Of a stretch of 64,000 bases of DNA, positions 25,616 through 49,660 are shown one piece after another. Below the pieces are notes generated by a model. It saw nothing but the letters and a program-made list of their open reading frames with translations, did not search any database and was not told the origin of the DNA. Within the stretch, counting starts at the first letter, position 1, and each line of letters begins with the position of its first letter. The position numbers and the translations under genes are program-made. The stretch is taken from assembly GCA_017303795.1 (NCBI GenBank), contig JAFLBR010000001.1, positions 531,285 to 595,284 of the forward strand, read 5' to 3'. This stretch comes from Cytophagales bacterium (GTDB lineage Bacteria > Bacteroidota > Bacteroidia > Cytophagales > Cyclobacteriaceae).

Positions 25616-27154
25616 ATGATACGAGTAGGTTTAGGAAAGTTAACGGTACAGGATTTTGAACAACTCCTTTTTAAAGAAGCTTTAGTTGAGTTGGATGATC
25701 AGGCACGTAATGAGGTAGATCGCAATTTTGAGTTTCTAAAAAACTATGCCAGCGATAAAATTATTTATGGCATCAACACGGGCCTCGGGCCAATGGCTCA
25801 GTATAAAATAAACGAACAAGATCAGCATCAGCTTCAATACAATCTCATTCGAAGTCACAGTGCCGGTGCCGGTGCGTGGTTCTCCGAACCGTTGGCACGT
25901 GCGACTATGCTGGCCCGATTAAACAGTTTAATGCAAGCGCGTTCGGGTGTGCATATTTCTGCTGCCGATTTGCTAGTAACTCTTCTTAACAAAAAAATAA
26001 TACCATGCATTTTCGAGCGCGGTGGAGTGGGGGCCAGTGGAGATCTGGTGCAACTCGCGCATCTGGCGCTTAACCTGATTGGCGAAGGCGAAGTAATGTA
26101 TCAAGGTAAGCAACAAGCTGCGGCTGAGGTTTTCAAACAACTCAACATCACTCCGCTTCAAGTACACTTGCGTGAAGGGTTGGGTTTAATGAATGGTACT
26201 TCAGCCATGACGGGCGTGGGCATGGTTAATCTGATTCGCGCCAAGCGTTTGCTTACGTGCTCGGTAATTCTTTCAAGCATCACCAACGAATTGATGAAAT
26301 CGTTTGACGATCATTTTTCGCTGGAACTCAATCGCGCCAAGCACCACCCTGGGCAAGCCGCCATAGCTACACACATGCGCACATGGCTGCACGACAGCAA
26401 ACTGATACGTAAACGCCCTGAACATCTTTATCATAAAAAAATAAATGAGGCCGTGTTTACCGACAAGGTGCAGGAGTATTATTCGCTGCGTTGTGTGCCG
26501 CAAATACTTGGCCCCATTCACGACACCTGGCTGGAAGTAAAAACTGTTTTGGAGAACGAAGTCAATTCAGTCAACGACAACCCCGTGGTGGATCACATTC
26601 ATGAAAATGTGTATCACGGTGGCAACTTTCATGGGGATTATGTTTCGTTGGCGATGGACAAACTGAAAATTGCTCTTGTAAAACTTTCGATGCTTTCTGA
26701 GCGGCAACTCAATTACTTATTGAACGACCGCCTTAATCAACATCTTCCGCCATTCATTAATCTGGGTACACTCGGTTTAAATTTTGGATTACAAGGTTTA
26801 CAATTTGTGGCAACGTCAACAGTTGCTGAAAATCAGACCCTCGCTAACCCCATGTATGTGCACAGCATCTCCAGCAATAACGACAATCAGGATATTGTGA
26901 GTATGGGTACTAATGCTGCGTTGCTTACGCAAAAGGTAATCGATAATAGTTTTGATGTATTGGCTGTGCAATTGCTGGCGCTGATGCAGGCTATCGACTA
27001 TCTGAAATGTCAACCCCGGCTTTCTACTGCTACACGAAACGTGTACGAGGAAGTAAGGAAAATTTCGGAAGTAATTGCAGAAGACAAACCCCGCTATACC
27101 GACATTAAGAAGGTGAGCGGATATTTGAATACATTAGGTACTTACTCGTTTTAA
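25616..27154 (+). CDS. Aromatic amino acid ammonia lyase, probable tyrosine ammonia lyase (flexirubin starter)
   Basis: 512 residues of the HAL/PAL/TAL family. The MIO cofactor forms from Ala-Ser-Gly in GVGASGDLVQLAHLAL. Other family motifs are YGINTGLGPMAQ, GLGLMNGTSAMTGVG, EYYSLRCVPQILGPI and SISSNNDNQDIVSMGTN. The selectivity loop reads NLIRSHSAG. The Ser-His pair would suggest histidine as substrate, but from memory the characterised F. johnsoniae TAL shares this loop and most other motifs, so I favour tyrosine to 4-coumarate. It stands at the front of the pigment cluster, 10 bases before fabG, which supports provision of an aryl starter. No clear promoter was found in the 83 bases upstream. 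Confidence 0.85.
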   Translation: MIRVGLGKLTVQDFEQLLFKEALVELDDQARNEVDRNFEFLKNYASDKIIYGINTGLGPMAQYKINEQDQHQLQYNLIRSHSAGAGAWFSEPLARATMLARLNSLMQARSGVHISAADLLVTLLNKKIIPCIFERGGVGASGDLVQLAHLALNLIGEGEVMYQGKQQAAAEVFKQLNITPLQVHLREGLGLMNGTSAMTGVGMVNLIRAKRLLTCSVILSSITNELMKSFDDHFSLELNRAKHHPGQAAIATHMRTWLHDSKLIRKRPEHLYHKKINEAVFTDKVQEYYSLRCVPQILGPIHDTWLEVKTVLENEVNSVNDNPVVDHIHENVYHGGNFHGDYVSLAMDKLKIALVKLSMLSERQLNYLLNDRLNQHLPPFINLGTLGLNFGLQGLQFVATSTVAENQTLANPMYVHSISSNNDNQDIVSMGTNAALLTQKVIDNSFDVLAVQLLALMQAIDYLKCQPRLSTATRNVYEEVRKISEVIAEDKPRYTDIKKVSGYLNTLGTYSF

Positions 27155-27164
27155 ATACAACCAC

Positions 27165-27890
27165 ATGAAGTTTGCATTAGTTACTGGAGGATCGCGCGGC
27201 ATAGGCAGGGCCATCTGCATTAAACTGGCCAAACAAGGTTATCATATTTTGATTAACTACCGCAGCAACGATGCCGAAGCACAACGCACCGCACAACTGG
27301 TGGAAGAATGTGGTGTAACGGCAACGTTAATTAAATTCGATGTGTCGGATAAAGAAGCCGTAACGCAGCAAATTGAAAAATGGACAGCTGCCAATCCCCA
27401 TAAGCATATTGAGGTGTTAGTGAACAATGCCGGCATTCGGCAGGATACACTTATGATCTGGATGACGGACGAGCAATGGCAGGATGTTTTGGGTGCGAGT
27501 CTTAACGGATTTTATTTTGTAACACGGGCGGTGTTGAATGGTATGATCACCAAAAGATATGGTCGCATTGTAAATGTGGTTTCGCTCTCCGGAGTAAAAG
27601 GAATGCCTGGCCAGGTAAATTACTCGGCTGCTAAAGCAGGAGTAATTGGCGCCACCAAAGCACTGGCACAGGAAGTAGCCAGAAGAAATGTAACTGTTAA
27701 TGCTGTAGCCCCTGGTTTTATAAAAACCGACATGACGCACGATTTAAAAGAAGATGAACTAAAGAAAATGATTCCGATGCAACGCTTTGGCGAAGTGGAT
27801 GAAGTGGCCGATGTGGTAGTATTTCTGGCATCGCCTCAGGCATCGTATGTTACCGGCAGCGTGATTCACATTAATGGTGGGTTGTTGTAG
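27165..27890 (+). CDS. fabG: 3-oxoacyl-ACP reductase, FabG/ApeQ-type
   Basis: 241-residue short-chain dehydrogenase. The NADP site is TGGSRGIGRA near residues 8-17. NNAG lies near residue 87, and the catalytic Ser...Tyr-x-x-x-Lys is VNYSAAKAG, followed by PGFIKTDM. It reduces the 3-keto group of ACP-bound intermediates. Its position immediately after the ammonia lyase and before the KS genes assigns it to polyene chain reduction (ApeQ role) rather than to general fatty acid synthesis, though it could serve both. Confidence 0.9.
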   Translation: MKFALVTGGSRGIGRAICIKLAKQGYHILINYRSNDAEAQRTAQLVEECGVTATLIKFDVSDKEAVTQQIEKWTAANPHKHIEVLVNNAGIRQDTLMIWMTDEQWQDVLGASLNGFYFVTRAVLNGMITKRYGRIVNVVSLSGVKGMPGQVNYSAAKAGVIGATKALAQEVARRNVTVNAVAPGFIKTDMTHDLKEDELKKMIPMQRFGEVDEVADVVVFLASPQASYVTGSVIHINGGLL

Positions 27891-27895
27891 GCAAA

Positions 27896-27919
27896 TACAT
27901 GCAGCTGAAACAGCATGTA
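27896..27919. terminator. Possible terminator between fabG and the opposing pair
   Basis: A perfect 7-bp inverted repeat TACATGC / GCATGTA with a 10-base loop, followed on the plus strand by a T-rich run. It lies between convergent genes. The stem is short. Confidence 0.4.
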
Positions 27920-27928
27920 GTGTTTCTA

Positions 27929-28501
27929 TTAATTTTTGGATCGCTTTTTAATTTTTTTGTAAACAGTTTTACTTTCTTCCACAATTGAAGAACTGCCATC
28001 ATTTTGTTTTCTAATTTTGTTTAGTGCTTTGATATCCTCCTTGTCGATAGCACGATTAACGGCAAGCTTGCTCAGAATAAGATCGTTGTACCCTATTACC
28101 GGAAATTTGTTACCCTCAATTTCTGCAAGGCTTGCATTCTTCTTTGCCTCCGAAAAGCTTTCTAACCCCAAAATCACGGGAAGGAAATCTGTATGAAATT
28201 CTTTATGCGGAATTTTGAGAAAAGTTTTTTTTGGATCGAATACAATCTGCTGAAGTTCTGTGATGTCAACACCTAATTCATACAGAGCTTTTAGAAGTTT
28301 TTGAAAATTTGACAAAGATGGCTTATACCAAAAATCAAAATCCGCTTTTAGTTCAGGCTTGTATGTTGTTATCATGGAAGGTCGTCTATAGCCATATAGA
28401 AAAACTGCATACCCGCCCACAATCATGAAATCTACTTCATACTTAGTTAAAGCTGTGCATACAGCCGCCATCTGCCTATTCACCACCTCTTCCGATTTCA
28501 T
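27929..28501 (-). CDS. Nucleotidyltransferase-fold protein (DUF6036/AbiEii-like)
   Basis: 190 residues with a minimal nucleotidyltransferase core: FMIVGGYAVFLYG (Gly29, Gly30), then Asp54 and Asp56 in ADFDFWY, and a basic C terminus. These are the GG and DxD elements of the fold. Such proteins occur in type IV-like toxin-antitoxin and other accessory modules, where they transfer nucleotides to RNA or protein. It lies one base after a 60-residue gene on the same strand. The pair is inserted on the opposite strand between two parts of the pigment cluster, which suggests independent acquisition. Activity as a toxin is inference. Confidence 0.7.
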   Translation of the reverse strand: MKSEEVVNRQMAAVCTALTKYEVDFMIVGGYAVFLYGYRRPSMITTYKPELKADFDFWYKPSLSNFQKLLKALYELGVDITELQQIVFDPKKTFLKIPHKEFHTDFLPVILGLESFSEAKKNASLAEIEGNKFPVIGYNDLILSKLAVNRAIDKEDIKALNKIRKQNDGSSSIVEESKTVYKKIKKRSKN

Positions 28502-28502
28502 A

Positions 28503-28803: not shown

Positions 28804-28828
28804 TAGCCTGTATTAAGCACGCTTCGTA

Positions 28829-30046
28829 ATGAATAGAGTAGTTATAACCGGTCTAGGAATTTACTCCTGCATCGGTAAAAATTTAGCAGAAGTTAAAGCA
28901 TCTCTCTTTCAGGGTAAATCGGGTATTATATTCGATCCCAAGCGTAAGGAGATGGGCTATCGTTCCAGCCTTACCGGATTTGTTGAACGTCCTTCGCTAA
29001 AAGGTGTGCTCGACAGGCGTGCCCGAATTATGCTACCCGAGCAAGGCGAATATGCCTACGTAGCTACCCTCGAAGCATTGGCTCAGGCGCGCATTGATGG
29101 TGATTACCTGGAAGCGCATGAGTTGGGTATTATTTATGGAAACGATAGCTCGGCCCAGCCAGTAATTGAAGCCACCGATATTATCCGCGAAAAGAAGGAT
29201 ACGATGTTGGTGGGTTCGGGTTCCGTATTTCAGGCGCTCAACTCAACAGTGAGTATGAACCTCGCCACGATATTTAAAATCAAGGGGGTAAATTTTACGA
29301 TTAGTGCCGCCTGTGCCAGTGGGTCGCATGCCATAGGCATGGCTTACCTTTTAATTCAACAAGGCTTACAAGATGCCATCATCTGCGGAGGCGCGCAGGA
29401 AACCAACGTTTACTCGATGGGAAATTTTGATGCGCTTGGTGCTTTCTCCATTCGTGAAAATAATCCTACTGCAGCTTCGCGCCCGTTCGATAAAGACCGC
29501 GATGGGCTGGTGCCCAGCGGGGGTGCGGCCACCGTTATTCTGGAAAGTTATGAATCGGCTGTAAAGCGTGGTGCCCCCATCTTAGGCGAAGTGATTGGCT
29601 ATGGATTTTCATCCAACGCGCAGCACATCTCTAACCCAAGTGTACAAGGCCCGGCCCGATCGCTGCAAAGAGCCTTGCAAAACTCTGGCTTGCAAGCCAA
29701 AGACATCGACTACATTAATGCCCATGCTACCAGCACACCCGCAGGCGATGCCAGCGAGGCAGGCGCTATTGCGGATATTTTTGAAGCCTGCAAAACTCCC
29801 GTGAGTTCCACCAAAGGCATGACCGGCCACGAGTGCTGGATGGCCGGAGCCAGCGAAATCGTTTACAGCATGCTGATGATGCAGGAATCGTTTATTGCAC
29901 CCAATATTAACTTTGAAACCCCCGATGAACATTCTGCCCGATTGAATGTTATAGCTAAAACTCAGAATCAAAATATTGATGTATTTTTGTCGAATTCGTT
30001 TGGCTTTGGGGGCACCAACTCAACGCTTATTGTAAAAAAAGTATAA
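28829..30046 (+). CDS. Beta-ketoacyl-ACP synthase, FabF-like (cluster KS 1)
   Basis: 405-residue condensing enzyme with a complete triad: Cys162 (SAACASGSHAIG), His299 (NAHATSTP) and His334 (KGMTGHECWMAG). FabF-type motifs PFDKDRDGLVPSGGA and the C-terminal SNSFGFGGTNS are present. It should extend ACP-bound chains by decarboxylative condensation with malonyl-ACP. It is the first gene of the plus-strand run, nine bases before an ACP gene, and may pair with that ACP. It resembles the KS of aryl-polyene clusters, but its order in chain building is unknown. Confidence 0.9.
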   Translation: MNRVVITGLGIYSCIGKNLAEVKASLFQGKSGIIFDPKRKEMGYRSSLTGFVERPSLKGVLDRRARIMLPEQGEYAYVATLEALAQARIDGDYLEAHELGIIYGNDSSAQPVIEATDIIREKKDTMLVGSGSVFQALNSTVSMNLATIFKIKGVNFTISAACASGSHAIGMAYLLIQQGLQDAIICGGAQETNVYSMGNFDALGAFSIRENNPTAASRPFDKDRDGLVPSGGAATVILESYESAVKRGAPILGEVIGYGFSSNAQHISNPSVQGPARSLQRALQNSGLQAKDIDYINAHATSTPAGDASEAGAIADIFEACKTPVSSTKGMTGHECWMAGASEIVYSMLMMQESFIAPNINFETPDEHSARLNVIAKTQNQNIDVFLSNSFGFGGTNSTLIVKKV

Positions 30047-30055
30047 GCAGAATTG

Positions 30056-30313
30056 ATGGAAAAAGTGGAATTAATTGAAAAAATCAATGGTTTTTTGGTT
30101 GAGGAGTTTGAGGTAAGCCCCGAAAAAATCACACCCGATGCCAACCTGAAAGAGACGCTGGAACTCGACAGTCTGGATTATATTGATTTGGTGGTAGTAA
30201 TCGAAAGCAACTTCGGCTTTAAAGTGAAGCCCGAGGACTTCATGTCGATTGTTACATTCCAAAATTTCTACGATTACGTGCAGCAGCGCGTTTCTGAAAA
30301 AGTGCCTTCCTAA
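30056..30313 (+). CDS. Acyl carrier protein (cluster ACP 1)
   Basis: 85 residues. The phosphopantetheine attachment Ser39 lies in ELDSLDYIDLV, with the usual acidic helix 2. The start is the ATG at 30056. A TTG one codon earlier also reads in frame. The prosthetic group would be added by the cluster's own AcpS (48000). It lies between KS 1 and the LpxL-like acyltransferase. Confidence 0.93.
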   Translation: MEKVELIEKINGFLVEEFEVSPEKITPDANLKETLELDSLDYIDLVVVIESNFGFKVKPEDFMSIVTFQNFYDYVQQRVSEKVPS

Positions 30314-30315
30314 CT

Positions 30316-31203
30316 ATGCCTGCCTGGCAGGGAAAATCGCGCGGAACTAAACTGGGATACAGCATTTTTGTGGCCCTATGCAAACACGCTGGTTTACTGC
30401 CTGGTTATGTGTTGCTTCGCTTTGTTGCTCTTTATTATTTTTTGTTCTCGCTAAAATCATCGCGGCACATTTACCAATACTTTCGGTTGCGACAGGGCTA
30501 TTCTAAAGTAAAGGGATTGTTTAGTGTGTACACAAACTATTATCGGTTTGGGCAAACCTTGTTAGATAAGATTGTGATTATGGCTGGCATTCAAAACAAG
30601 TTTACCTACCATTTTGATGGCGAAGAAAACCTGCTCGCCATTGCATCACAAAAGAAGGGTGGAATTTTATTAAGTGCCCACGTAGGCAATTGGGAAGTAG
30701 CCGGGCATTTTCTGGAGCGATTAAAAACCACTATGAATGTGGTGATGTTTGATGGCGAACATCAACAGATAAAAGATTACCTGCAGCAGGTTACCGGTAA
30801 CCGTAAGTTTAATGCGATTGTGATAAAGGAAGATTTCTCACACGTGTATGCTATTGGCGAAGCACTTCAGAAAAATGAAATGGTGTGCATACATGCCGAT
30901 CGTTTTATGGAGATAACCAAAACTACACCTGTTAAGTTTTTGGGCGAAGAAGCCTTGTTCCCCAACGGGCCTTTTACTTTGGCCGCAGCTTTTCACGTTC
31001 CGGTTTCGATTGTTTATGCTTTTAAAGAAACCAACAAACATTACCACTTTTTTGGGAGCAAACCCATTAGCAGAATGGAAGATGAATCGAAGCAAGCGTA
31101 CACCCAGCGCCTTATGCAATTGTTTGTGAGCGAGCTGGAAGTAAAAATGAAAACCTACCCCGAACAATGGTTTAATTATTATAACTTTTGGGAGAAAAAA
31201 TAG
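30316..31203 (+). CDS. LpxL/HtrB-family acyltransferase (ApeD-like)
   Basis: 295 residues with a hydrophobic N-terminal segment (about 15-45). It has the lysophospholipid/lipid A acyltransferase motif HVGNWE near residue 122, a later basic-acidic site, and NGPFTLAAAFHVP. LpxL-family enzymes transfer acyl chains from ACP to lipids at the inner membrane. In aryl-polyene clusters a homologue (ApeD) is thought to transfer the chain to a lipid anchor. It lies two bases after ACP 1. Confidence 0.85.
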   Translation: MPAWQGKSRGTKLGYSIFVALCKHAGLLPGYVLLRFVALYYFLFSLKSSRHIYQYFRLRQGYSKVKGLFSVYTNYYRFGQTLLDKIVIMAGIQNKFTYHFDGEENLLAIASQKKGGILLSAHVGNWEVAGHFLERLKTTMNVVMFDGEHQQIKDYLQQVTGNRKFNAIVIKEDFSHVYAIGEALQKNEMVCIHADRFMEITKTTPVKFLGEEALFPNGPFTLAAAFHVPVSIVYAFKETNKHYHFFGSKPISRMEDESKQAYTQRLMQLFVSELEVKMKTYPEQWFNYYNFWEKK

Positions 31204-31206: not shown

Positions 31207-31638
31207 GTGTTAGTTGGCAAACCCCATATCGAAAACTTTCTTCCACAGCGGGCACCTATTGTAATGGTAGATGAATTGCTGGAAGCCTCAACCGAACACG
31301 CTATCACCCGATTTGAAATCCGCAGCAATACACTTTTTGTTGAAAAAAATTTTCTTACTGAAGCCGGGCTTATTGAAAACATAGCACAGACAGCCGCAGC
31401 GCAGGCCGGCTATCTGGCGCAACAACAGGGCGTGGCCACACCCGTGGGTTTCATTGCTTCCATTAACGATTTAAAAATACTGGAGTCTCCAACCGTGGGT
31501 GTTGTGCTCACAACTTCTATCTCTGTTATCAATAGAGTTTTTGAAGTGATTATTATTCAGGCCCAAACAAAACAAGATATGCGTGAACTCTGCTCGTGCC
31601 AGATGAAAATATTTATTAAACCTCAGGATCGTGCTTAG
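31207..31638 (+). CDS. Hotdog-fold dehydratase subunit lacking the catalytic His (ApeP-like)
   Basis: 143 residues of the FabZ/FabA hotdog fold, beginning FLPQRAPIVMVDELLEA. The region where FabZ has its catalytic His (GHFPG) reads VEKNFLTEAG, so the His is missing. The central-helix glutamate is kept in LIENIAQTAAAQAG. A complementary protein with His but no Glu is encoded at 39492. Together they could form one active site. The start codon is GTG (31207), three bases after the previous stop. No ATG lies nearby. Confidence 0.8.
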   Translation: MLVGKPHIENFLPQRAPIVMVDELLEASTEHAITRFEIRSNTLFVEKNFLTEAGLIENIAQTAAAQAGYLAQQQGVATPVGFIASINDLKILESPTVGVVLTTSISVINRVFEVIIIQAQTKQDMRELCSCQMKIFIKPQDRA

Positions 31639-32044
31639 CTATAAAACAATTGTCCCCGTTCGTTTTAATGAAGCCGACCCGTTGGGTATTGTATGGCACG
31701 GGCATTACATCCGGTACTTTGAAGATGGCCGCGAAGCTTTTGGTAAAGAGTTTGGTATTTCTTACCTCGACTTTCATAAGCAGGGAATAGTGGTACCGAT
31801 TGTATCGGTGCAATGTGATTATAAAAAGCCGTTGCGCTATGGCGAAAGTATTATCATTCATACTATTTATCGACCGGTAGCTGCAGCCAAACTTATCTTC
31901 GATTACGAAATTACGCAGGCCGAAAATAATTCGCGTGTTGCGACCGGTTCAACCACGCAGGTTTTTGTAGATGCCAAAACATTTGATCTGCAACTTATTA
32001 CTCCGCCTTTTTTTGAGCAATGGAAAACCAAATGGCGAGTATGA
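31631..32044 (+). CDS. Acyl thioesterase, 4HBT/YbgC-like (ApeK-like)
   Basis: 137-residue hotdog thioesterase. Signature VRFNEADPLGIVWHGHYIRYFEDGREAF carries the catalytic Asp (in EADPLG) and the HGHY loop of the 4-hydroxybenzoyl-CoA thioesterase family. It probably releases or edits acyl-ACP in the polyene pathway. The start is GTG (31631), overlapping the previous stop by eight bases, which indicates coupled translation. Confidence 0.85.
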   Translation: MLSYKTIVPVRFNEADPLGIVWHGHYIRYFEDGREAFGKEFGISYLDFHKQGIVVPIVSVQCDYKKPLRYGESIIIHTIYRPVAAAKLIFDYEITQAENNSRVATGSTTQVFVDAKTFDLQLITPPFFEQWKTKWRV

Positions 32045-33147
32045 AAACAGTGTGGGTAGTAGGCGATAGTATGATTTCTCCATTGGGAGAAACGACAGCA
32101 GCTAACTACCAGAACGTTCGCGCGGGTAAGAGCGGTATTACTAAAGTTGAGTTAACCGAGTTACCGTTTTATGCTTCCACTATCGCCAATTTACAAGCAA
32201 CAACTACCAATACTCGTTTTGAAAATCTCGTGTTGCAGGCTGCACAGCCAATCGTAATACAAACAACACTTCCGCCCGATAAAACACTTTTTATACTTTC
32301 TACTACCAAGGGAAACATTGAATTGCTGAAAAGTGAACCTATCATTGGGTTGCATCCTCGTCTCGCCTTGCATGCAGCAGCCTCGCATGTTGCGCAACAA
32401 CTAGGATTAAAAAATTCGTTAGTCGTTTCTAATGCCTGCATCTCGGGTGTGCTGGCGTTGATTACAGCCAAACGTCTTTTACAAAATGGCGAATACGACC
32501 ATGCGCTTGTAGTCGGTGCCGATGTACTTAGTCCGTTTATTGTTTCTGGTTTTCAATGTTTACAAGCCATGAGCAGCGAACCCTGCAAACCGTTTGATAA
32601 AGATCGTTCTGGTATTAACCTGGGCGAAGGAGCTGCCGCTTTGTTATTAACTACAACACCAGAATCATTTCCGACAAGTCATAAAATAAAACTTACCGGC
32701 TTTGGCTTAAGTAACGATGCCAATCACATCTCGGGCCCATCGCGCACCGGAGAAGAATTGGCCAGCGCCATCGCGCAAGCATTCACGCAAGCGAAACTTA
32801 CCACAGAACAAATTGATGTTATTTCAGGGCATGGAACAGCAACTTTGTTTAACGATGAGATGGAAGCCAAAGCGTTAACATTAGCCGGACTCAATCAAAC
32901 TCCCCTTACGGGATTAAAGGGATACTTCGGCCATACGCTGGGTGCGGCCGGAGTTATTGAAACCATTATGGCCATGCAGGGCATGTTGCAAAACGAAACA
33001 GTCGATACAAAAGGATATACAGCTCACGGTGTTTCTGTTCCGCTCAACATTACGCAAGGAGTTAAGTCGCAATCACAAAAAAGAATTTTAAAAACCGCAT
33101 CCGGATTTGGTGGCTGTAATGCTGCCCTTATTCTGGAGCAAGAATAG
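32041..33147 (+). CDS. Beta-ketoacyl-ACP synthase (cluster KS 2)
   Basis: 368 residues from the ATG at 32041 (ATGA overlap with the thioesterase). Earlier in-frame ATGs at 32020 and 32032 are possible but extend into the neighbour. The triad is intact: Cys133 (SNACISGVLAL), His264 (SGHGTATLFND) and His298 (LKGYFGHTLGAAG). The protein is shorter than FabF and more diverged, like the KS proteins specific to aryl-polyene and flexirubin clusters (ApeR-like). It is likely a condensing enzyme for starter or extender units. Confidence 0.88.
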   Translation: MKTVWVVGDSMISPLGETTAANYQNVRAGKSGITKVELTELPFYASTIANLQATTTNTRFENLVLQAAQPIVIQTTLPPDKTLFILSTTKGNIELLKSEPIIGLHPRLALHAAASHVAQQLGLKNSLVVSNACISGVLALITAKRLLQNGEYDHALVVGADVLSPFIVSGFQCLQAMSSEPCKPFDKDRSGINLGEGAAALLLTTTPESFPTSHKIKLTGFGLSNDANHISGPSRTGEELASAIAQAFTQAKLTTEQIDVISGHGTATLFNDEMEAKALTLAGLNQTPLTGLKGYFGHTLGAAGVIETIMAMQGMLQNETVDTKGYTAHGVSVPLNITQGVKSQSQKRILKTASGFGGCNAALILEQE

Positions 33148-34400: not shown

Positions 34401-34996
34401 CCATTACCAGCTATTGCATTATCCGAAACCAACAGGTACTAACACCCAACGAAACATTGTCGTTGACTCAACCATCCTTTGATGATTTCTTAACTGCTTT
34501 GTACGATCGTCTTCAACCAAACTATCCCAGGTTTTATAAAATGGATAACCAATCCAAGCTTGGGTTTCTGGCGGCAGAAATTTTGTTGAAAGAATACTCC
34601 ATTCAATCGTACAAACCTGAAACAGTATCGGTCGTGCTCTCTAACGCAAATGCCAGTCTTGATACCGACATCCGTTTTGAGGCCTCAACCCAAACTGTGG
34701 CCAGTCCTTCGTTGTTTGTTTATACGCTGGCTAACATTGTTATGGGCGAGATTTGTATCCGCCACAGCATAAAAGGCGAGAATGCTTTTTTTGTTGCTCC
34801 TGAATTTAACGCCCGGCTAATGACCTCTTACTCGCATCAGGTGCTAAACCAAAATAAAACTGAGGTTTGTTTAGCAGGCTGGGTAGATGTGCTGGGCGGG
34901 CAGCATAACGTTTTCTTATATTTGGTAGAAAATAGGGAACGCGGATTGGCCTTGCCACACACCGCCACCGAACTTGAAAAACTATACCGACAATAA
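34397..34996 (+). CDS. Truncated thiolase-fold (KS-like) protein lacking catalytic residues
   Basis: 199 residues, half the length of a KS. It shows a degraded N-terminal KS pattern: FLAAEILL, SVVLSNANASLDTD, SPSLFVYTLANIVMGEICIRHSIKG and ENAFFV. The position that would hold the nucleophilic Cys has none. Similar short 'beta-ketoacyl synthase-like' proteins occur in Bacteroidota flexirubin clusters. A structural or partner role for one of the active KS proteins is inferred. It lies eight bases before the second ACP gene. Confidence 0.6.
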   Translation: MTITSYCIIRNQQVLTPNETLSLTQPSFDDFLTALYDRLQPNYPRFYKMDNQSKLGFLAAEILLKEYSIQSYKPETVSVVLSNANASLDTDIRFEASTQTVASPSLFVYTLANIVMGEICIRHSIKGENAFFVAPEFNARLMTSYSHQVLNQNKTEVCLAGWVDVLGGQHNVFLYLVENRERGLALPHTATELEKLYRQ

Positions 34997-41028: not shown

Positions 41029-44000
41029 ATGGAAAAATTCTTTTTAGGAATATATCGGTTTTTTGAAAAGAGGCGAATCCTTTTCTGGATGGTCTTTGGT
41101 TCAACCATATTGGTGTTGCTAACGGGTGCGTATGCTGTGCGACTGGAGGAAAACATCACCCGTTTTTTTCCGGATGATGAACGGGTAGAAAAACTCAACA
41201 CGATTTTTCAGAATTCTTCTTTTGCCGATAAGGTGGTGGTGATGATTTCCGTTAAGGATAGCACACAAAAACTAACTCCCGATAGTCTTACGAACTATGC
41301 CGGGCAAGTAGCCAATCGGTTAGAAACTGATTTGCAGCCGTACGAAGCTGAAATTGCCAGTAGGGTGGATGATGAACGCCTGCTCGAAGTCTTTCAGATT
41401 GCGCAACAGCATCTGCCACTTTTTCTTACCGCTGGTGATTATGCCGAACTGGATTCACTTACGCAGCCCGAAGCCAGTCGTGCGCGCTTACGCGAACAGT
41501 ATCAACAACTGCTGGCACCCTCGGGCTTTGTGCTTAAGAATATGATTGTAAAAGACCCGATGGGGTTTACCAATCTTGTTCTTCGCAAGCTGCAACAACT
41601 TCAATATGACGATAACTTTGAGTTGTACGATAACTATATAATTACGCGCGATCACAGGCATGTGGTTTTCTTTGTTCAGCCTGGGCATGAATCAAGCGAC
41701 ACCGGACAAAACGCAGACTTTGTAAATGCGCTTCACCAAATCAGCGAAGCGTATTCTACCGAAACAATTTTGGTTTCTTACTTTGGTGCCACCGCAGTTG
41801 CTGTTGGTAATGCACAACAACTACGGCACGATATTCAGCTTACTATTTCTTTATTAATAGTATTGCTTGGTATTTTTATTATTGGCTTTTTTAGAAACGT
41901 GCAATCACTCGTATTCATTCTTATACCGGCTGTGTTTGGTGGCTTGTTTTCATTGTCGTGCATCTATCTTATTAAAGGAACGGTTTCTATTCTTGCTTTG
42001 GCGGCAGGCTCTGTTATTCTGGGTATTGCTGTTAACTATGCGTTGCACTTTCTGGTGCATTACCGCTATCATCCCAACAAAGAACAAGTAATCAAAGACC
42101 TGGTAAAACCTATGACGTTGGGTAGCCTTACTACCGTACTCGCTTTTTTTAGTTTACAGTTTACCAGCGCTGCTGTTTTGCAAGACCTCGGACTGTTTGC
42201 AGGTTTTAGTTTGATAGGTGCTGCGTTGTGTTCACTCATTTTCTTTCCACACTTTATTACACAACCTGATTTTAAGGAAACAGCTTTTGATCGGGCATTT
42301 GTTTTTAAAAAATCACCGGGGCGCATTCCTGTTTTTATAATTCTGCTCCTCACACCGGTGTTTTTTCACTTTGCATCGCAAGTGAATTTTAACAGCAACA
42401 TGGGTAGTCTGAATTTTATGAATGAAAATACCAGACAAGCTCAAGAACGTCTGGAGGCGATTAACCCAGCCAGTTTGCATTCGCTTTATGTTTCGAGTGA
42501 TGCGCCATCGCTGCAGCAGGCTTTACAAAAAATGGAGCAGGCAATTCCGGCTATCGAAAGTCTTGAAGCAAACGGAATAATTCAACGAACTCTTACACCT
42601 TCTTCGTTTCTGCTTTCCGATTCGTTGCAACGCATTCGCATACAGCAATGGCACACCTTCTGGAATACGCGCAAAGAAGCCTTCTTTCAAACTGTGAAAG
42701 AAGAAGGTGCCCGATTAAAGTTTTCAGCAGCGGTACTTGCTAATGTGGATTCGGTAGTAGATCGGAACTACGCCTTAATGAATGCAACCACTTTCAATAC
42801 GTTAAAGAATCTTTTCTTCAGAGATAATATTATTGAGCGAAATGAACAAGCAACGGTTATCTCATTAATCAATGTATTGCCTGAAGACAAAGCGCAAGTT
42901 CAGCAGACGTTAGCATCGGCACCAGCCAGCCTTTTAGACAGGCAAATGATAACTACCTTGTTTGTAGAATTCATTCACGAAGATTTTAACTTCATTGTAA
43001 CGTTTACGGCAATCCTGGTTTTTGTAGTGCTACTGATTTCAACCGGACGTATTGAGCTAACTATCGTTACGTTCACACCCATGCTGATTACTTGGATATG
43101 GATTCTCGGCATTATGGCGTTGGTGGGTATTGAATTTAATATCATCAATGTAATCATCTCTACATTCATCTTCGGCTTAGGCGATGACTACAGCATTTTT
43201 GTAATGGATGGCTTACAGCAAGAATACAAATCGGGTAAACAAAATTTACCTTCGGTGCGCGTATCCATTGCGCTTTCAACTTTAACTACGGTATCGGGCT
43301 TGGGTGTACTTATTTTTGCCGAACATCCTGCTCTGCGTTCAATTGCAGCTATAGCTATTATCGGTATTGTGTGTGTGTTTATTATGTCGCAGGTGATTGA
43401 GCCTTTTTTGTTTTCTAATCTGATCACCAATCGCACATTCAAGAAGTTGCCACCGGTAACCGCTAAAGGATTGTTTTTCACCACGCTTACTTACAGCTTA
43501 TTTGTGTTTGGTTCTTTGTTTCTTACAGTAGTGGGGCTACTCATGCTTTTAATTCCGTTTGCACGGAAAAGAGTTCGGCTTGCGTATCATCATCTCATTC
43601 GGTTCTTTACCAGAAGTGTGGTGTACCTGGCACTAAATCTGAAGAAGCGAATTACAAAACACAACACCGATATTTTTCAACGGCCCGGAATCATTATCGC
43701 TAATCACAGTTCGTTTCTGGATATATTAATCACTACTATGTTGCACCCGCGCGTAGTACTGCTCACCAATAAATGGGTGTGGAATTCGCCCGTGTTTGGC
43801 GGTGTAGTTCGGTTGGCAGGTTATTATCCGGTTGAAGCAGGAGCAGAGGGAAGTATCGATCAACTTAAGAATCGCATTGATGAAGGTTATTCGGTTGTTG
43901 TTTTTCCGGAAGGAACCCGCTCGAAAAATGGTACTATCGGTCGCTTTCATAAAGGTGCTTTTTTTATGGCCGAAAAATTTCAGCTCCCGATTTATCCGGT

Positions 44001-44847
44001 ACTGATTTCAGGTGCATCGCGTGCCATTCCAAAATCTACCTGGTATGTAAATGAAGCCACGGTTGCGGTAAGTATGTTATCAGGTATTGAAGCGACAGAT
44101 ACACACTTTGGAGCGACCTATCAGGAAAAGACCAAAGCCATTGCGCGGTATTTTAAAGAATCACATGCTCAACTGGAGAAAGAAGTACGTACCCCCAAAG
44201 AATTCAGGCATAGTCTGTATAACAATTATCGCTACAAAGGGCCGGTACTGGAGTGGTATCTGCGGATTAAACTGCGCATGGAAAACTACTATCAGATTTT
44301 CGATGAGTTAGTTCCTAAAAAAGCATCGGTGCTTGATCTTGGGTGTGGTTACGGTTTTTTGTGTTATCAATTGCAGTTTCTCTCAACTGAACGAACAATT
44401 ACGGGCATTGACCACGATGAAGAGAAAATTATGGTGGCACAACATGGTTATTTACGATCAGATAAACTTCAGTTTAATACCGCCAATGTGGCCGAGTGCG
44501 CCATTGCTCCGCACGATGCAATTATTATTGCCGATGTTTTGCACTACCTGTTGCCACAACAGCAAGAGGCATTATTAGTAAAATGTTTTGAAGCGGTATT
44601 GCCTGATGGCAAAATTATCATTCGCGATGGCGATGCTGATCTTATTCAACGGCATAAAGCCACACGGTTCACCGAAGTGCTTTCGGTTAGTCTGTTGGGT
44701 TTTAACCGTGCCGAAAATCCGCTCAACTTTATTTCAGGCAGTTGGTTAAAATTGTTTTGCCAGCAACACGGATTTAAGGTAGAGACAATTGATCAGTATA
44801 AAGCCACTTCTAATATTATTTTTGTGATTACTAAAGCAACTGTTTGA
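41029..44847 (+). CDS. Trifunctional fusion: MMPL exporter, PlsC acyltransferase and SAM methyltransferase
   Basis: 1,272 residues. Residues 1-830 are an RND/MMPL-type exporter with two blocks of membrane helices, periplasmic loops and a DDYSIF motif. Residues about 870-1075 are a PlsC-like acyltransferase with HxxxxD (His893-Asp898) and FPEGTRS. Residues about 1085-1272 are a class I methyltransferase with motif I LDLGCGYGF near residue 1100. In aryl-polyene clusters these are separate proteins (exporter ApeM, methyltransferase ApeB). Fusion would couple attachment, methylation and export of the pigment lipid. Similar three-part fusions are known in flexirubin producers. Confidence 0.92.
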   Translation: MEKFFLGIYRFFEKRRILFWMVFGSTILVLLTGAYAVRLEENITRFFPDDERVEKLNTIFQNSSFADKVVVMISVKDSTQKLTPDSLTNYAGQVANRLETDLQPYEAEIASRVDDERLLEVFQIAQQHLPLFLTAGDYAELDSLTQPEASRARLREQYQQLLAPSGFVLKNMIVKDPMGFTNLVLRKLQQLQYDDNFELYDNYIITRDHRHVVFFVQPGHESSDTGQNADFVNALHQISEAYSTETILVSYFGATAVAVGNAQQLRHDIQLTISLLIVLLGIFIIGFFRNVQSLVFILIPAVFGGLFSLSCIYLIKGTVSILALAAGSVILGIAVNYALHFLVHYRYHPNKEQVIKDLVKPMTLGSLTTVLAFFSLQFTSAAVLQDLGLFAGFSLIGAALCSLIFFPHFITQPDFKETAFDRAFVFKKSPGRIPVFIILLLTPVFFHFASQVNFNSNMGSLNFMNENTRQAQERLEAINPASLHSLYVSSDAPSLQQALQKMEQAIPAIESLEANGIIQRTLTPSSFLLSDSLQRIRIQQWHTFWNTRKEAFFQTVKEEGARLKFSAAVLANVDSVVDRNYALMNATTFNTLKNLFFRDNIIERNEQATVISLINVLPEDKAQVQQTLASAPASLLDRQMITTLFVEFIHEDFNFIVTFTAILVFVVLLISTGRIELTIVTFTPMLITWIWILGIMALVGIEFNIINVIISTFIFGLGDDYSIFVMDGLQQEYKSGKQNLPSVRVSIALSTLTTVSGLGVLIFAEHPALRSIAAIAIIGIVCVFIMSQVIEPFLFSNLITNRTFKKLPPVTAKGLFFTTLTYSLFVFGSLFLTVVGLLMLLIPFARKRVRLAYHHLIRFFTRSVVYLALNLKKRITKHNTDIFQRPGIIIANHSSFLDILITTMLHPRVVLLTNKWVWNSPVFGGVVRLAGYYPVEAGAEGSIDQLKNRIDEGYSVVVFPEGTRSKNGTIGRFHKGAFFMAEKFQLPIYPVLISGASRAIPKSTWYVNEATVAVSMLSGIEATDTHFGATYQEKTKAIARYFKESHAQLEKEVRTPKEFRHSLYNNYRYKGPVLEWYLRIKLRMENYYQIFDELVPKKASVLDLGCGYGFLCYQLQFLSTERTITGIDHDEEKIMVAQHGYLRSDKLQFNTANVAECAIAPHDAIIIADVLHYLLPQQQEALLVKCFEAVLPDGKIIIRDGDADLIQRHKATRFTEVLSVSLLGFNRAENPLNFISGSWLKLFCQQHGFKVETIDQYKATSNIIFVITKATV

Positions 44848-46355
44848 TGGAGCAATATGATGTAGTGATTGTGGGAAGTGGGCTGGGTGGTTTGGCATGC
44901 GGTACTATTCTGGCGAAGGAAGGCTATAAAGTTTGTTTAATAGAAAAGAACAAACAGATTGGGGGTAACCTCCAGACTTTTGTGCGCGAAGGTGTGGTGT
45001 TTGATTCGGGAGTGCATTATGTAGGCGGGCTGGATAAAGGGCAGAACCTCTATCAACTTTTCAAATACCTTGGTATTATGGATAAGTTGAAGTTACGCAA
45101 GTTGGATGAAGATGTATTTGATGCCATTTTGTTTGAAGGCGATCCGGTAGTTTATAAGTATGCGCAGGGCTATGAAAATTTTATTCGCGTGTTGACCGAA
45201 CAATTTCCTGAAGAAGAAGCTGCGCTGCGAATCTATTGCGATAAGATTAAAGATGTATGTTCACGCTTTCCGCTTTATAATCTGCGCAAAGGCGATTACT
45301 TTGATAAAATTGAAGCCTTAGAGATTGATACCAAAACCTTTATTGAGTCAATTACTTCAAACAAAAAATTGCAGAATGTTTTGGCGGGCACCAGTTTGCT
45401 TTATGCTGGCGAGCCCGACAAAACGCCACTTTACGTTCACGCACTGGTGCTCAACAGTTATATCGAAAGTTCATGGCGGTTTGTAGATGGCGGTTCGCAA
45501 ATTGCCCGCTATCTGTCGCGGCAAATTGTAGGTAGTGGTGGTCGCATCGTTAACTATACTGAAGTAGTTAAGTTCGTTGAAGAGGATGATAAGATTGCGT
45601 ACGTAGAATCAAGTACCGGAGAAAAATTTTATGGCAAACTTTTCATTTCCAATCTGCACCCGGCCAAAACACTGGAGATGACTGAGAGCGATCGTATTAA
45701 AAAGGCCTTTCGCACGCGTATTAATAGTCTGGAAAATTCCATTTCTGTTTTTTATGTAAACGTAGTGTTGAAACCTAAAACCATGAAGTATGTTAATCAC
45801 AACTACTACTATTTTGCGGTAGAAGATACATGGTCGGTACTCGATTATAAATTGGAAAACTGGCCAATGGGTTTTGCATTTTATTATAGCGCATCTTCTG
45901 AAGATACAGAGTATTGCGATGGTGTTACGGTAATGACTTATATGCGTTTTGATGAAGTTGCCAAGTGGAAGGATACGTTTAATACGGTGGCAAACGAAAA
46001 TGACCGTGGTGCTGAGTATGAGGAATTTAAAAAAGTAAAATCGGAAATGCTGTTTGATATGGTGGAAGCTAAATTTCCGGGCTTTAAAGATTCTATCCAA
46101 TCGTATTACACGGCCACGCCACTTACTGTGCGCGATTATATTGGCACCGATGATGGTTCGCTTTATGGCATTACGAAAGATTATCGCGAACCTATGCGCA
46201 CGTTTATCTCGCCACGAACCAAAATCTCAAACCTTTACCTTACCGGACAAAACCTAAACCTGCATGGGGTGTTGGGTGTAACTGTTAATGCTGTAATGAC
46301 GTGTTCGCAAATCCTGGGTATTGATTACATGCTAGAAAAAATCAAGAATGCGTAA
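44847..46355 (+). CDS. CrtI/phytoene desaturase-like FAD oxidoreductase
   Basis: 502 residues from the ATG at 44847. The stop TGA of the fusion gene overlaps this ATG by one base. The Rossmann FAD site is VVIVGSGLGGLACGTILA. The IEKNKQIGGNLQT segment and a late LYLTGQNLNLHGVLG resemble phytoene desaturase, retinol saturase and similar flavoenzymes. No carotenoid genes (crtB, crtE) are nearby, so a role in pigment desaturation or tailoring is more likely than carotenoid synthesis. Confidence 0.85.
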   Translation: MEQYDVVIVGSGLGGLACGTILAKEGYKVCLIEKNKQIGGNLQTFVREGVVFDSGVHYVGGLDKGQNLYQLFKYLGIMDKLKLRKLDEDVFDAILFEGDPVVYKYAQGYENFIRVLTEQFPEEEAALRIYCDKIKDVCSRFPLYNLRKGDYFDKIEALEIDTKTFIESITSNKKLQNVLAGTSLLYAGEPDKTPLYVHALVLNSYIESSWRFVDGGSQIARYLSRQIVGSGGRIVNYTEVVKFVEEDDKIAYVESSTGEKFYGKLFISNLHPAKTLEMTESDRIKKAFRTRINSLENSISVFYVNVVLKPKTMKYVNHNYYYFAVEDTWSVLDYKLENWPMGFAFYYSASSEDTEYCDGVTVMTYMRFDEVAKWKDTFNTVANENDRGAEYEEFKKVKSEMLFDMVEAKFPGFKDSIQSYYTATPLTVRDYIGTDDGSLYGITKDYREPMRTFISPRTKISNLYLTGQNLNLHGVLGVTVNAVMTCSQILGIDYMLEKIKNA

Positions 46356-48003
46356 GCGATTACTCAAAATAGCATTAGGCATTGTGATCACGCTGCTCGT
46401 GGTGACTGGTGTGTTGATGCTGTATATTCAACAGGTTGCATATTTTACGCCTCCGCAGTTTCCAATAGATGCGATTACAAAAGTGAATGTAATGGAGGAC
46501 TCAGGTTTGTTTGTGTATGAACAGAATTGGTTTCGCAAAAGTGAAAGCGGTTTGCATGAACTGTATGTAGAAGGTGATGCCGTGCAACGCGGTATAGCTA
46601 TGGGAGCGCTAACGCAATCATTAGCTCATTATCAGGAAAAGGTGTTTACGGATCAAATTAACCAGATGGTGCCCTCTGCTTTTTACCGAAAAGTGTTGAT
46701 GTATTTTATCGGTTGGTTTAACCGCGATCTGGATAAACATGTGGTGGAAGAATATCAGCAGGAAATTTATGGCATTGCTCAATATGCCTCGCCCGATTTT
46801 GATTCTATTGCTCCCGCTTATCAACGCATTCTAAATTATCATGCCGCCCACGATATTGGTCACGCATTGCAGAATATGTCGTTGGTAGGATGTACTTCGT
46901 TTGCTACATGGGGCAGTTCATCGCAAGACAGTTCATTGATTATCGGTCGTAATTTTGATTTTTATGTAGGCGATGATTTTGCAAAGAATAAGATTGTAGC
47001 GTTTATTAACCCGGATAAAGGCTACAAGTTTATGATGCTAACATTTAGCGGCATGGTAGGCGTGCTTTCCGGAATGAACGAAGCCGGACTCACCGTCACC
47101 ATCAATGCAGCTAAGTCTGAAATTCCTTCGGCTGCGGCAACTCCGGTTTCGTTGGTGGCGCGTGAAATTTTGCAATATGCGGCCACTATAGAAGAGGCGT
47201 ATGCCATTGCTTCCAAAAGAGATTTGTTTGTGGCCGAATCGTTTCTGATAGGTTCGGCCAATGATAACCGCGCGGCTCTTATCGAAAAGAGTAATACTGA
47301 AACAGCACTCTATCAGGTTGAAGGAACGCAACTCATCAGTACCAATCACTTTCAAAGTAATCAATTAGGCAATACCGAACTTAACCAAACACACAAGCAA
47401 CAAAGTGCTTCCGTCTATCGGTATGAGCGCGTGGCTGAACTGCTTCAAGAGCAAGGAAAAAACACAATAGAAAAAACTGCTGCGCTGCTTCGCAATCAGC
47501 AAGGACAACGCGATAAAGATATTGGTATGGGTAATGAGAAACTGGTTAATCAGCTCATTGCGCATCACGGCATTATTTTCCAACCAGAAAAAAGACTGGT
47601 GTGGATTTCTACTGCACCCTGGCAACTGGGCAAGTTTGTTTGTTATGATTTGAACAAGGTGTTTCAGTTAAACCTGAATGCCAATCGGGAAATTTATGAA
47701 TCGGATAAAGAGATAAAGGCTGATACTTTTATAACTACACCGGCTTATGCCGATTTTGTGAAGTATTCGGCCTACCGGTTTGCTTTTGCACCACGCGAAA
47801 ACCTGAACCCCGATAGTGTGGTGGCATGGAATCCGAATTTGTATCATTCCTATATGCTGGCCGGGGATTATTGGTTTGATAGAAAAGAATACAATCAAGC
47901 CCGGAAATTTTATGAACTTGCGCTTACCAAAGAAATTGCCACGTTTGCCGAGCGCGAACACATTACCAAAAACCTGGCTACGTGTATAACTAAAGCTCCA
48001 TGA
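46348..48003 (+). CDS. C45/AAT-family hydrolase or acyltransferase (Ntn fold), membrane-anchored
   Basis: 551 residues with an N-terminal membrane anchor (about 5-28). The Ntn-hydrolase nucleophile is probably Cys in VGCTSFATWGSSS. The GRNFDFY and GVLSGMNEAGLTVTINA motifs identify the C45 acyl-CoA:6-aminopenicillanate acyltransferase-like family, which matures by autoproteolysis and forms or cleaves amide or ester bonds. Placed inside the flexirubin operon, it might esterify or amidate the polyene. That is inference. A C-terminal TPR-like end follows (about 500-551). Overlaps the previous gene by eight bases. Confidence 0.8.
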   Translation: MRKRLLKIALGIVITLLVVTGVLMLYIQQVAYFTPPQFPIDAITKVNVMEDSGLFVYEQNWFRKSESGLHELYVEGDAVQRGIAMGALTQSLAHYQEKVFTDQINQMVPSAFYRKVLMYFIGWFNRDLDKHVVEEYQQEIYGIAQYASPDFDSIAPAYQRILNYHAAHDIGHALQNMSLVGCTSFATWGSSSQDSSLIIGRNFDFYVGDDFAKNKIVAFINPDKGYKFMMLTFSGMVGVLSGMNEAGLTVTINAAKSEIPSAAATPVSLVAREILQYAATIEEAYAIASKRDLFVAESFLIGSANDNRAALIEKSNTETALYQVEGTQLISTNHFQSNQLGNTELNQTHKQQSASVYRYERVAELLQEQGKNTIEKTAALLRNQQGQRDKDIGMGNEKLVNQLIAHHGIIFQPEKRLVWISTAPWQLGKFVCYDLNKVFQLNLNANREIYESDKEIKADTFITTPAYADFVKYSAYRFAFAPRENLNPDSVVAWNPNLYHSYMLAGDYWFDRKEYNQARKFYELALTKEIATFAEREHITKNLATCITKAP

Positions 48004-48374
48004 TTGCAGGGACCGGAATAGACATGGTGGACGTAGTGCGTATCGCTGAAAAGCTTGCCAAAGAAAATGGCTTTCGCGAAAAAGTATTTTCTACGCATGA
48101 GATTTCTTTCTGTGAATCAAAGGCAAAACAGGCAGAACATTATGCCGGTCACTTTGCTGCAAAGGAGGCATTCTTAAAAGCAATCGGTAGGGGATTGTTA
48201 CTCGATCTTGATCTTACAACTATAGAAGTTCAGCACGAAACTTCGGGTAAACCGTTTCTAAAACTGACTGGCGTATTTGATGCGTTTATGAAAGAACAAC
48301 AGTACGCTGCTGTACACCTTTCCATTACTCACACTTCATCCATGGCTTGTGCTATGGTTATTCTTGAAAAATGA
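48000..48374 (+). CDS. acpS: Holo-ACP synthase (4'-phosphopantetheinyl transferase)
   Basis: 124 residues, the AcpS length. Motifs are GTGIDMVDVVRI with the metal-binding Asp and FAAKEAFLKAIGRG with the Glu-Ala-Lys site. It should load phosphopantetheine on the cluster ACPs at 30056 and 35005. ATGA overlap with both neighbours shows tight coupling. Whether the organism has a second AcpS for primary metabolism cannot be seen here. Confidence 0.92.
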   Translation: MIAGTGIDMVDVVRIAEKLAKENGFREKVFSTHEISFCESKAKQAEHYAGHFAAKEAFLKAIGRGLLLDLDLTTIEVQHETSGKPFLKLTGVFDAFMKEQQYAAVHLSITHTSSMACAMVILEK

Positions 48375-49660
48375 TTTCTGAAATAGAATTTGCTTCATCA
48401 AATGAAATTGCTGCGTTGCAGTATAAAAAGGTTGCGGACTTAATTAATTACGTGGCCCAACATTCTCCCTTCTTTCAAAGGCATTTTGCGAAACACAACA
48501 TTACAATTGCTGCTATAAAAAGTTTAGCCGATTTAGATCGAATGCCAGTAACCACCAAAGACGATCTTCAACAAGCTAACTGGGATTTTCTATGTATTCC
48601 TAAACATCAGATTGCAGAATACACCAGCACTTCGGGCACGTTGGGTAAGCCGGTAACTATTGCGCTTTCAAAAAAAGATGTAGAACGCCTGGCTTATAAC
48701 GAAGCGCTTTCATTTGCGTGTGCCGATGGCGGTAGTAATGATGTATATCAACTCATGCTTACGTTGGACAGGCAGTTTATGGCTGGCATGGCGTATTATG
48801 AAGGCATTAGAAAGTTGGGTGCCGGAATGGTACGCGTGGGTCCTGGGTTGCCGGCATCGCAATGGGAAACTATTCAGCGACTTTCGCCCACTACAATAGT
48901 GGCAGTTCCTTCATTTGTGGTGAAGTTGTTAGAGTTTGCTCAACAGCAGGGCATCGATCCGAATCAAACATCTGTAAAGAAAATAGTTTGTATTGGTGAA
49001 AGCATCCGGCAGGAAAATTTGCAGGCCAATGTTTTGGCGCAACGTATCACTAGTCAATGGCATGTAAAGCTCTATGGCACGTATGCCTCTACCGAAATGC
49101 AAACTGCTTTTACAGAATGCAGTCATGGTGCAGGTGGGCATCTGCATCCTGAATTGCTTTATGTAGAATTGCTTGACGAAAGCAACAAACCCGTAGGTGA
49201 AGGCGAAACCGGTGAAGTAACCATTACTACATTAGGTGTGGAAGCCATGCCTTTGCTACGATATAAAACAGGCGACATGGCGAAGTTTCATCAGGAGTCC
49301 TGTGCTTGTGGACGAACCTCATTACGACTCGGACCAATTGTGGGGCGCAAGCAACAGATGCTAAAACTGAAAGGCACTACGGTTTATCCTCCGGCTTTGT
49401 TCGAGATTTTAAATCAGCAGCTACCCATTATTGATTACGTGGTGGAAGCGTTTACGAACGAACTGGGTACAGATGAAGTACGGATTTTTATCCACGCCAG
49501 TGAAACACACCAGCCTGAAGTTCAGGAAACCCTGCACCGGAGTTTTCAATCGCAGCTGCGCGTAATACCTACGTTGGTTTTTACCGATCTGGCTGCTATT
49601 GAGAAGCTGAATGGTATTGGAATAAATCGAAAAATTCGCAAATTTGTTGATACACGATAA
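48371..49660 (+). CDS. Adenylating acyl ligase, phenylacetate-CoA ligase-like (ApeH-like)
   Basis: 429 residues of the PaaK-like branch of the ANL superfamily. The phosphate loop is EYTSTSGTLGKPVTIAL, followed by KLYGTYASTEMQTAFTEC and a C-terminal domain with KLKGTTVYPPALFEIL. It is the obvious candidate to activate coumarate made by the ammonia lyase and pass it to an ACP or CoA. Located at the end of the tight operon, with an ATGA overlap with acpS. Confidence 0.87.
   Translation: MISEIEFASSNEIAALQYKKVADLINYVAQHSPFFQRHFAKHNITIAAIKSLADLDRMPVTTKDDLQQANWDFLCIPKHQIAEYTSTSGTLGKPVTIALSKKDVERLAYNEALSFACADGGSNDVYQLMLTLDRQFMAGMAYYEGIRKLGAGMVRVGPGLPASQWETIQRLSPTTIVAVPSFVVKLLEFAQQQGIDPNQTSVKKIVCIGESIRQENLQANVLAQRITSQWHVKLYGTYASTEMQTAFTECSHGAGGHLHPELLYVELLDESNKPVGEGETGEVTITTLGVEAMPLLRYKTGDMAKFHQESCACGRTSLRLGPIVGRKQQMLKLKGTTVYPPALFEILNQQLPIIDYVVEAFTNELGTDEVRIFIHASETHQPEVQETLHRSFQSQLRVIPTLVFTDLAAIEKLNGIGINRKIRKFVDTR

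Follow-up and report, generated by a model that had tools for sequence, protein, structure and literature searches.

The locus at positions 25616-49660 of a 64,000-nucleotide stretch from a Cytophagales bacterium (GenBank assembly GCA_017303795.1, contig JAFLBR010000001.1, positions 531,285 to 595,284; the window) raises the question of whether a flexirubin-type (flx) gene cluster can stand without the genes for the dialkylresorcinol (DAR) half of the pigment, and what it would then make. A preliminary description of this DNA had found a complete-looking flexirubin/aryl-polyene cluster with darA and darB out of view, and had left two alternatives: dar genes elsewhere, or an aryl-polyene lipid without the resorcinol part. 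The second is the better of the two, judging from sequence, because DarA, DarB and DarH were not found in the genome and no DAR ester would be formed. With a probability of about three in four, the product is a tyrosine-derived aryl-polyene lipid rather than flexirubin sensu stricto, and the genome holds only the polyene half of the pathway.

The cluster was annotated by Pfam and NCBIfam profile scans, with the curated cut-offs of the NCBIfam models, and compared gene by gene with 23 other regions by tblastn. Its 23 genes are colinear with the 25-gene flxA-Y cluster of Chitinophaga polysaccharea (G010), in which tblastn recognised 25 genes from lyase to ligase corresponding to the letters A-Y. 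The letters are those given to Cpin_1853-1877 of C. pinensis in PMC3992019; letters named neither there nor by NCBIfam were assigned from gene order. Five flx-specific NCBIfam equivalogs (FlxA, FlxB, FlxY, LolA2 and LolB2) score above cut-off in the window, among them the two taken to define an flx cluster, the FlxA-type tyrosine ammonia-lyase (NF053541, 815.8 bits, cut-off 700) and the FlxY-type ligase (NF053551, 626.4 bits, cut-off 520). The gene complement of aryl-polyene (APE) clusters, namely ketosynthase/chain-length factor (KS/CLF), acyltransferase, glycosyltransferase, MMPL exporter and LolA, is present by Pfam as well. These models and the gene order bear out the flexirubin/aryl-polyene identity proposed earlier.

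In relatives, the dar operon was located with the NCBIfam models for DarB, DarG and DarH. It contains darA, darB, darG, darH, an ABC transporter and a second acyl carrier protein (ACP), KS and CLF; the DarA query, which has no Pfam or NCBIfam match at the thresholds used, was picked by its position beside DarB. In the window's own genome (G000; 4,868,279 bases, or 4.87 Mb, in 24 contigs, completeness 100%), DarA and DarH were not found at E ≤ 1, nor DarB at E ≤ 1e-20. This refutes, for the assembled genome, the suggestion that the dar genes lie elsewhere. Within the window, DarA and DarB gave no tblastn match, as the preliminary description had held, and neither did DarG, DarH or the dar permease; the dar ABC ATPase had one distant match (27% identity, 8720-9352). 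The same searches recovered DarA and DarB in 44 of 69 FlxY-bearing genomes, which serves as a positive control. In G000 as assembled, neither the darA-darB pair nor the BtrH-like acyltransferase DarH, by which flexirubin sensu stricto was recognised, was found. The nearest FlxY relatives, G001 and G004, are also without DarA, DarB and DarH and retain the cluster.

In the proposed pathway, 4-coumarate would arise from tyrosine through the ammonia-lyase FlxA and would then be loaded by FlxY; both activities were shown for the C. pinensis enzymes (PMC3992019). By homology, assembly of the aryl-polyene acid would fall to the type II ketosynthases with the chain-length factor, together with FlxB and the hotdog dehydratases, and its attachment to a lipid and delivery to the outer membrane would fall to FlxE, FlxT and FlxU with LolA2 and LolB2. 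The aryl-polyene of this organism is probably lipid-anchored. Without DarA, DarB and DarH the DAR ester would not be made, and the product would lack the FlxJ methylation and might carry a ring modification introduced by the flavoenzyme FlxK.

Published phenotypes fit a polyene without the resorcinol half giving a negative flexirubin test. Chryseosolibacter histidini PWU4 (G007), which has all 25 flx genes and no dar, is test-negative with yellow colonies, and Ohtaekwangia koreensis (G003), with flx and dar, was positive in the same study and culture (PMC9296434). As published for Reichenbachiella (cluster calls by antiSMASH; reference-strain test values from the literature), 3/3 strains with arylpolyene and resorcinol clusters are positive, R. 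faecimaris with the arylpolyene cluster only is negative and beige, and 2/2 strains with neither are negative (PMC10752948). It should be mentioned that a negative test is ambiguous. The colour in the test stems from the phenol-polyene, and an alkali shift would be expected even of a 4-hydroxyphenyl polyene by itself. The Azoarcus pigment shows no alkali shift (PMC3949708). Several observations weigh against an aryl-polyene lipid as the product: the negative tests of C. histidini and R. faecimaris may reflect silent clusters or a masked product, an assembly in 24 contigs leaves gaps, G412 of the same genus has FlxY together with dar, and an opposite-strand nucleotidyltransferase open reading frame (ORF) splits flxAB from the remaining cluster.

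The alternative that survives best is compatible with an aryl-polyene lipid and concerns the ring. The product could be a ring-chlorinated, xanthomonadin-like aryl-polyene with FlxK as the chlorinase, which we regard as possible but doubtful. FlxK (33150-34400; PF04820), a flavin-dependent halogenase-like enzyme whose nearest PDB entry is 3nix (506 bits), retains WxWxIP at 215 and a lysine, Lys72, aligned with that of CmlS-/ChlB4-type halogenases, the motif set used to recognise FADH2-dependent halogenases. In the fetched stretches of 19 compared clusters, FlxK occurs in 15, FlxJ in nine and at least one of them in 18 (G233 has neither), and FlxK is present in nine of the ten without FlxJ. However, C. 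polysaccharea carries FlxK in the corresponding position, and the flexirubin of C. pinensis, whose flxA-Y likewise comprises 25 loci, is C43H54O4 and free of chlorine (PMC3992019), so FlxK need not mean chlorination.

The structure of the cluster bears on a second alternative, that it is a relic which has fallen silent or begun to decay since the dar module was lost. All 23 flx ORFs are open and lie on the forward strand. The first two are flxA (25616-27154; ASG triad at 140) and flxB, an SDR ketoreductase (27165-27890; NF053542, 404.5 bits, cut-off 340). They are followed on the reverse strand by the nucleotidyltransferase ORF (27929-28501; DUF2204/DUF6036 by Pfam), which has no match in the other 23 regions and is probably an insertion outside the pathway. 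From flxC to flxY (28829-49660) the intergenic distances are -40 to +12 bp. The compact gene run described earlier is therefore confirmed for this part, but 25616-49660 is not one unbroken operon, because the ORF parts flxB from flxC. The single match of a promoter scan with a Bacteroidota-type regular expression fell within flxA and was not used.

The condensing and chain-processing genes are the ketosynthases flxC (28829-30046; PF00109/PF02801), flxI (32020-33147; PF00109) and flxN (35262-36464; PF02801/PF00109), the chain-length factor flxO (36425-37489; PF13723), the acyl carrier proteins flxD (30053-30313) and flxM (35005-35265; both PF00550), the FabZ-like hotdog dehydratase flxF (31207-31638; placed by synteny and a weak NCBIfam FabZ match, 29.4 bits), the 4HBT thioesterase flxH (31631-32044; PF13279, TIGR00051) and the FabA-like hotdog dehydratase flxS (39492-39866; PF07977). 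Putative lipid and transport functions fall to the LpxL-like acyltransferase flxE (30316-31203; PF03279), flxQ (LolA2; 38272-38901; NF053544, 187.9 bits, cut-off 125), the lipoprotein gene flxR (LolB2; 38882-39505; NF053540, 112 bits, cut-off 60), the GT2-DUF2062 gene flxT (39853-41025; PF00535, PF09835) and flxU (41029-44847; PF03176, PF01553, PF13847). The others are the polysaccharide deacetylase flxP (37486-38259; PF01522), the CrtI-like oxidoreductase flxV (44844-46355; PF13450, PF01593), flxW for a C45 autoproteolytic acyltransferase/hydrolase (46348-48003; PF03417; NF040521, 222.6 bits, cut-off 85), the AcpS phosphopantetheinyl transferase flxX (48000-48374; PF01648), the 4-coumarate-CoA ligase family gene flxY (48371-49660) and flxL (34397-34996), which encodes a conserved 199-aa protein without a Pfam match. 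The letters D, E, H, K, M, Q, R, T, U and X rest on synteny. Genes and coordinates listed in the preliminary description hold, with some corrections: between the LpxL-like gene and the next ketosynthase there are only two hotdog genes, flxF and the thioesterase, flxS between LolB2 and GT2 had gone unlisted, flxL, flanked by the halogenase-like gene and the second ACP, had been overlooked, and the MMPL fusion can be specified as MMPL, LPLAT acyltransferase and methyltransferase. A small forward-strand ORF at 49644-50099 overlaps the end of flxY; of the regions compared, G001 and G004 alone have homologues of it in that position. About 1.4 kb beyond flxY, a REP-associated tyrosine transposase-like gene lies at 51074-51604 on the forward strand (75.4 bits, cut-off 80).

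Signature residues are ASG in the lyase, AC-S in the three ketosynthases, with none in the chain-length factor (which is without the active-site Cys), GCT in the C45 protein and HX4D in the LPLAT domain. For 21 genes compared with G001 (GT2 not among them, and the ACP2 pair left out because it involved a wrong ORF), pN, the proportion of nonsynonymous differences, is 0.11-0.34 against a near-saturated synonymous pS of 0.61-0.91, with dS saturated or >1.2 throughout; this comparison points to constraint on the cluster genes. GT2 in G001 at first looked frameshifted, but this is probably no error, since in many relatives GT2 and DUF2062 are separate ORFs; they form a single protein in the window and Chitinophaga, and two ORFs in Chryseolinea-type clusters. 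For FlxL, structure comparison suggests, weakly, a half-size ketosynthase/chain-length factor; its profile match to a PDB ketosynthase reaches only E 0.028. Its best AlphaFold model has a predicted local distance difference test (pLDDT) score of 79.8, others as low as 45.6, and its Foldseek matches are KS/CLF but with root-mean-square deviations of 8-12.

Completeness, as claimed at the outset, applies to 23 of the 25 flx genes. No flxG was found by tblastn, a search confined to the window, and flxJ was not found anywhere in G000 at E ≤ 1e-60; in relatives flxG precedes flxH and flxJ comes after flxI, and both occur in Chitinophaga and Ohtaekwangia clusters. FlxJ is variable, being found in 52/74 genomes, none above the curated cut-off: with the NCBIfam model 'FlxJ family methyltransferase' the Ohtaekwangia copy scores 517.6 and the Solitalea copy 544.6 bits, against a cut-off of 560. 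At E ≤ 1e-60 it was found neither in the two nearest FlxY relatives (G001, G004) nor in the four remaining genomes of the genus whose FlxY exceeds its cut-off, two of which are only 73-81% complete. It is missing from 17/27 dar-less against 5/45 dar-bearing genomes (kinship uncorrected).

The loss of flxG and flxJ, the foreign ORF between flxB and flxC, the occurrence of FlxY above cut-off in only 5/62 genomes of the genus, and the test-negative polyene-only strains (C. histidini, PMC9296434; R. faecimaris, PMC10752948) would suit a relic. We consider it unlikely, given the 23/23 open and closely spaced ORFs, the low pN against G001 and the persistence of lipid and transport genes in the clusters of 12 of the 14 dar-less genomes compared. 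Less likely still is a true flexirubin(-like) ester with resorcinol supplied by a dar operon missed in the assembly or by genes without homology to dar: the 24 contigs and a chalcone/stilbene-synthase-type polyketide synthase (PKS) with methyltransferase and UbiA on contig 19 leave some room for it, but the completeness of 100%, the separate assemblies G001 and G004 also without dar, the failure to find DarH, and FabH-profile matches of similar size in dar-bearing genomes (judged by size only) speak against it.

The contig 19 locus (L003; G000:C19:93052-96876) had been a candidate for DarB as a FabH-like gene and was rejected as actually of the chalcone/stilbene type; such a PKS is an unlikely dar replacement, because of those similar-size matches in dar-bearing genomes. 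Two above-cut-off FabH matches have neighbours such as genes that were identified by eye as leucyl-tRNA synthetase or acetyl-CoA carboxylase; FlxI from the cluster itself accounts for the fourth. With its type III PKS, methyltransferase and divergent UbiA, L003 is a possible phenolic-lipid locus in its own right.

The aryl-polyene lipid assignment would make the window one of many clusters without dar. The main survey covered 69 FlxY-bearing genomes: 55 came from 391 genomes drawn evenly from the order (53 above the FlxY cut-off, G362 and G395 slightly below) and 14 from loci. DarB is above cut-off in 44 and not above it in 25. DarA was found in 45; the extra one, in G264, is a fragment that spans 97 profile positions and contains a stop, while that of G375 has one in-frame stop. 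In a second survey of 50 of the 66 remaining loci (16 left out) and three genus genomes, minus L030 (n = 52, mostly Chitinophaga and Mucilaginibacter), seven were without DarB above cut-off, so the frequency of dar-less clusters depends on the sample. DarH is above cut-off in 45 of 72 genomes, the DarB set plus G412, whose DarB comes from the second survey, and never where DarB is not; presence agrees in 72/72 genomes for DarB and DarH and in 68/69 for DarA and DarB (relatedness uncorrected). Two weaker DarH-like matches, a second copy in G005 and one in G335, fall below cut-off. In the window's genus, DarB is absent in four of the five FlxY-bearing genomes and present in G412. DarB-like matches below cut-off at G029:C36:13309-14421 and G487:C2:51948-53069, in open frames of 640-658 aa, are perhaps fused StlD/DarB relatives.

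The FlxY tree, built by a quick method from 101 rows (65 dar-bearing, 23 dar-less, 13 unknown), has several long branches. L022, L024 and L045 (duplicates of G412, G410 and G443) and G161 (same record as L020) were removed; G029 was labelled dar-less despite its match below cut-off, L051 dar-bearing from a DarB fragment and DarH within its locus, and L044, L049 and L074 dar-bearing from genes visible in their loci. For several dar-less rows, which come from draft or metagenome-assembled genomes, absence carries less weight. By parsimony the label switches 12 times, at least six forced by well-supported branches; these counts are rough and do not tell whether dar was gained or lost. The window falls together with L008 (G001) and L013 (G004), all dar-less, with support 99, inside a 19-row clade of ten dar-bearing and nine dar-less rows that includes Chryseolinea and Ohtaekwangia. 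In one genome, loss is seen in action: aligned with the full dar operon of G231, G264 (L174, G264:C33) matches on both flanks but is missing positions 6449-14774 of the G231 stretch (~8.3 kb). At the junction the darA start adjoins a ketosynthase end and a CLF remnant is left. This is a dar-operon deletion with the flx cluster kept; FlxJ and AcpS were not detected in G264, likewise in G231.

The distribution also bears on the ester step. FlxW was proposed in 2014 as the polyene-resorcinol ester-forming enzyme (PMC3992019), but 12 of the 14 compared clusters without dar retain it. The exceptions, G233 (L150-L151) and G335 (L154-L155), are minimal lyase-type polyene clusters, in the fetched stretches without GT2, MMPL, CrtI, C45, Lol and deacetylase genes. 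NCBIfam names DarH a BtrH-related acyltransferase. The Azoarcus pigment is a DAR-polyene ester, as deduced from mass spectrometry; its dar operon holds a BtrH-like gene, called darE there, and the 35 genes of Table 1 in that paper include no C45-type protein by domain annotation, three entries being without a domain (PMC3949708). The co-occurrence of DarB and DarH, the retention of FlxW in dar-less clusters and the Azoarcus pattern lead us to favour DarH as the ester synthase; from sequence comparison they point to DarH rather than FlxW.

Polyene clusters that have no DAR genes beside them have been published before. DAR clusters were reported in 16 of 39 genomes with polyene clusters (PMC3949708), and in Flavobacteriia polyene genes were distinguished from dar genes, the polyene being turned into a flexirubin-type pigment where DAR proteins occur (PMC5932025). 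Among the closest systems described, flxA-flxY of C. pinensis shares the tyrosine ammonia-lyase start and the FlxY ligase, and dar genes lie outside its polyene cluster; its darAB are present elsewhere (Cpin_6850-6851) and it makes flexirubin (PMC3992019), whereas the window's genome is without dar, flxG (window) and flxJ; except for flxG and flxJ, the gene order is that of its relative C. polysaccharea. The 37-kb flexirubin cluster of Flavobacterium johnsoniae has homologous polyene genes and shares LolA2 and LolB2, which are located in flexirubin loci, but unlike the window includes the dar genes (PMC3992019, PMC11885536). Xanthomonadin/arcuflavin clusters combine a polyene module and a halogenase gene with DAR (Azoarcus) or without it (Xanthomonas), and differ in their chorismatase start unit and in belonging to Proteobacteria (PMC3949708). 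The E. coli APE cluster likewise serves an aryl-polyene without DAR, with acyltransferases, a glycosyltransferase, an RND exporter and Lol-like proteins (PMC8253772). Unlike the cluster in the window, it is not known to start from a tyrosine ammonia-lyase.

For G000 as assembled, the polyene pathway stands without resorcinol genes, a condition that recurs among flx-bearing Bacteroidota. In the openly licensed literature searched we found nothing on joint loss of DarH and DarAB, nor on giving the proposed role of FlxW to another enzyme. That DarA, DarB and DarH are distributed together, while FlxW is kept without them, offers a testable reassignment of the unproved ester step. As a tentative generalisation, somewhat short of an even chance, flexirubin may consist of two separable modules, the dar operon being a dispensable cap often lost as a block, with DarH joining the halves and FlxW serving a lipid-anchored aryl-polyene that many Bacteroidota would make unseen by the standard flexirubin test. 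Flexirubin serves as a chemotaxonomic marker, and a marker made of separately inherited halves can mislead.

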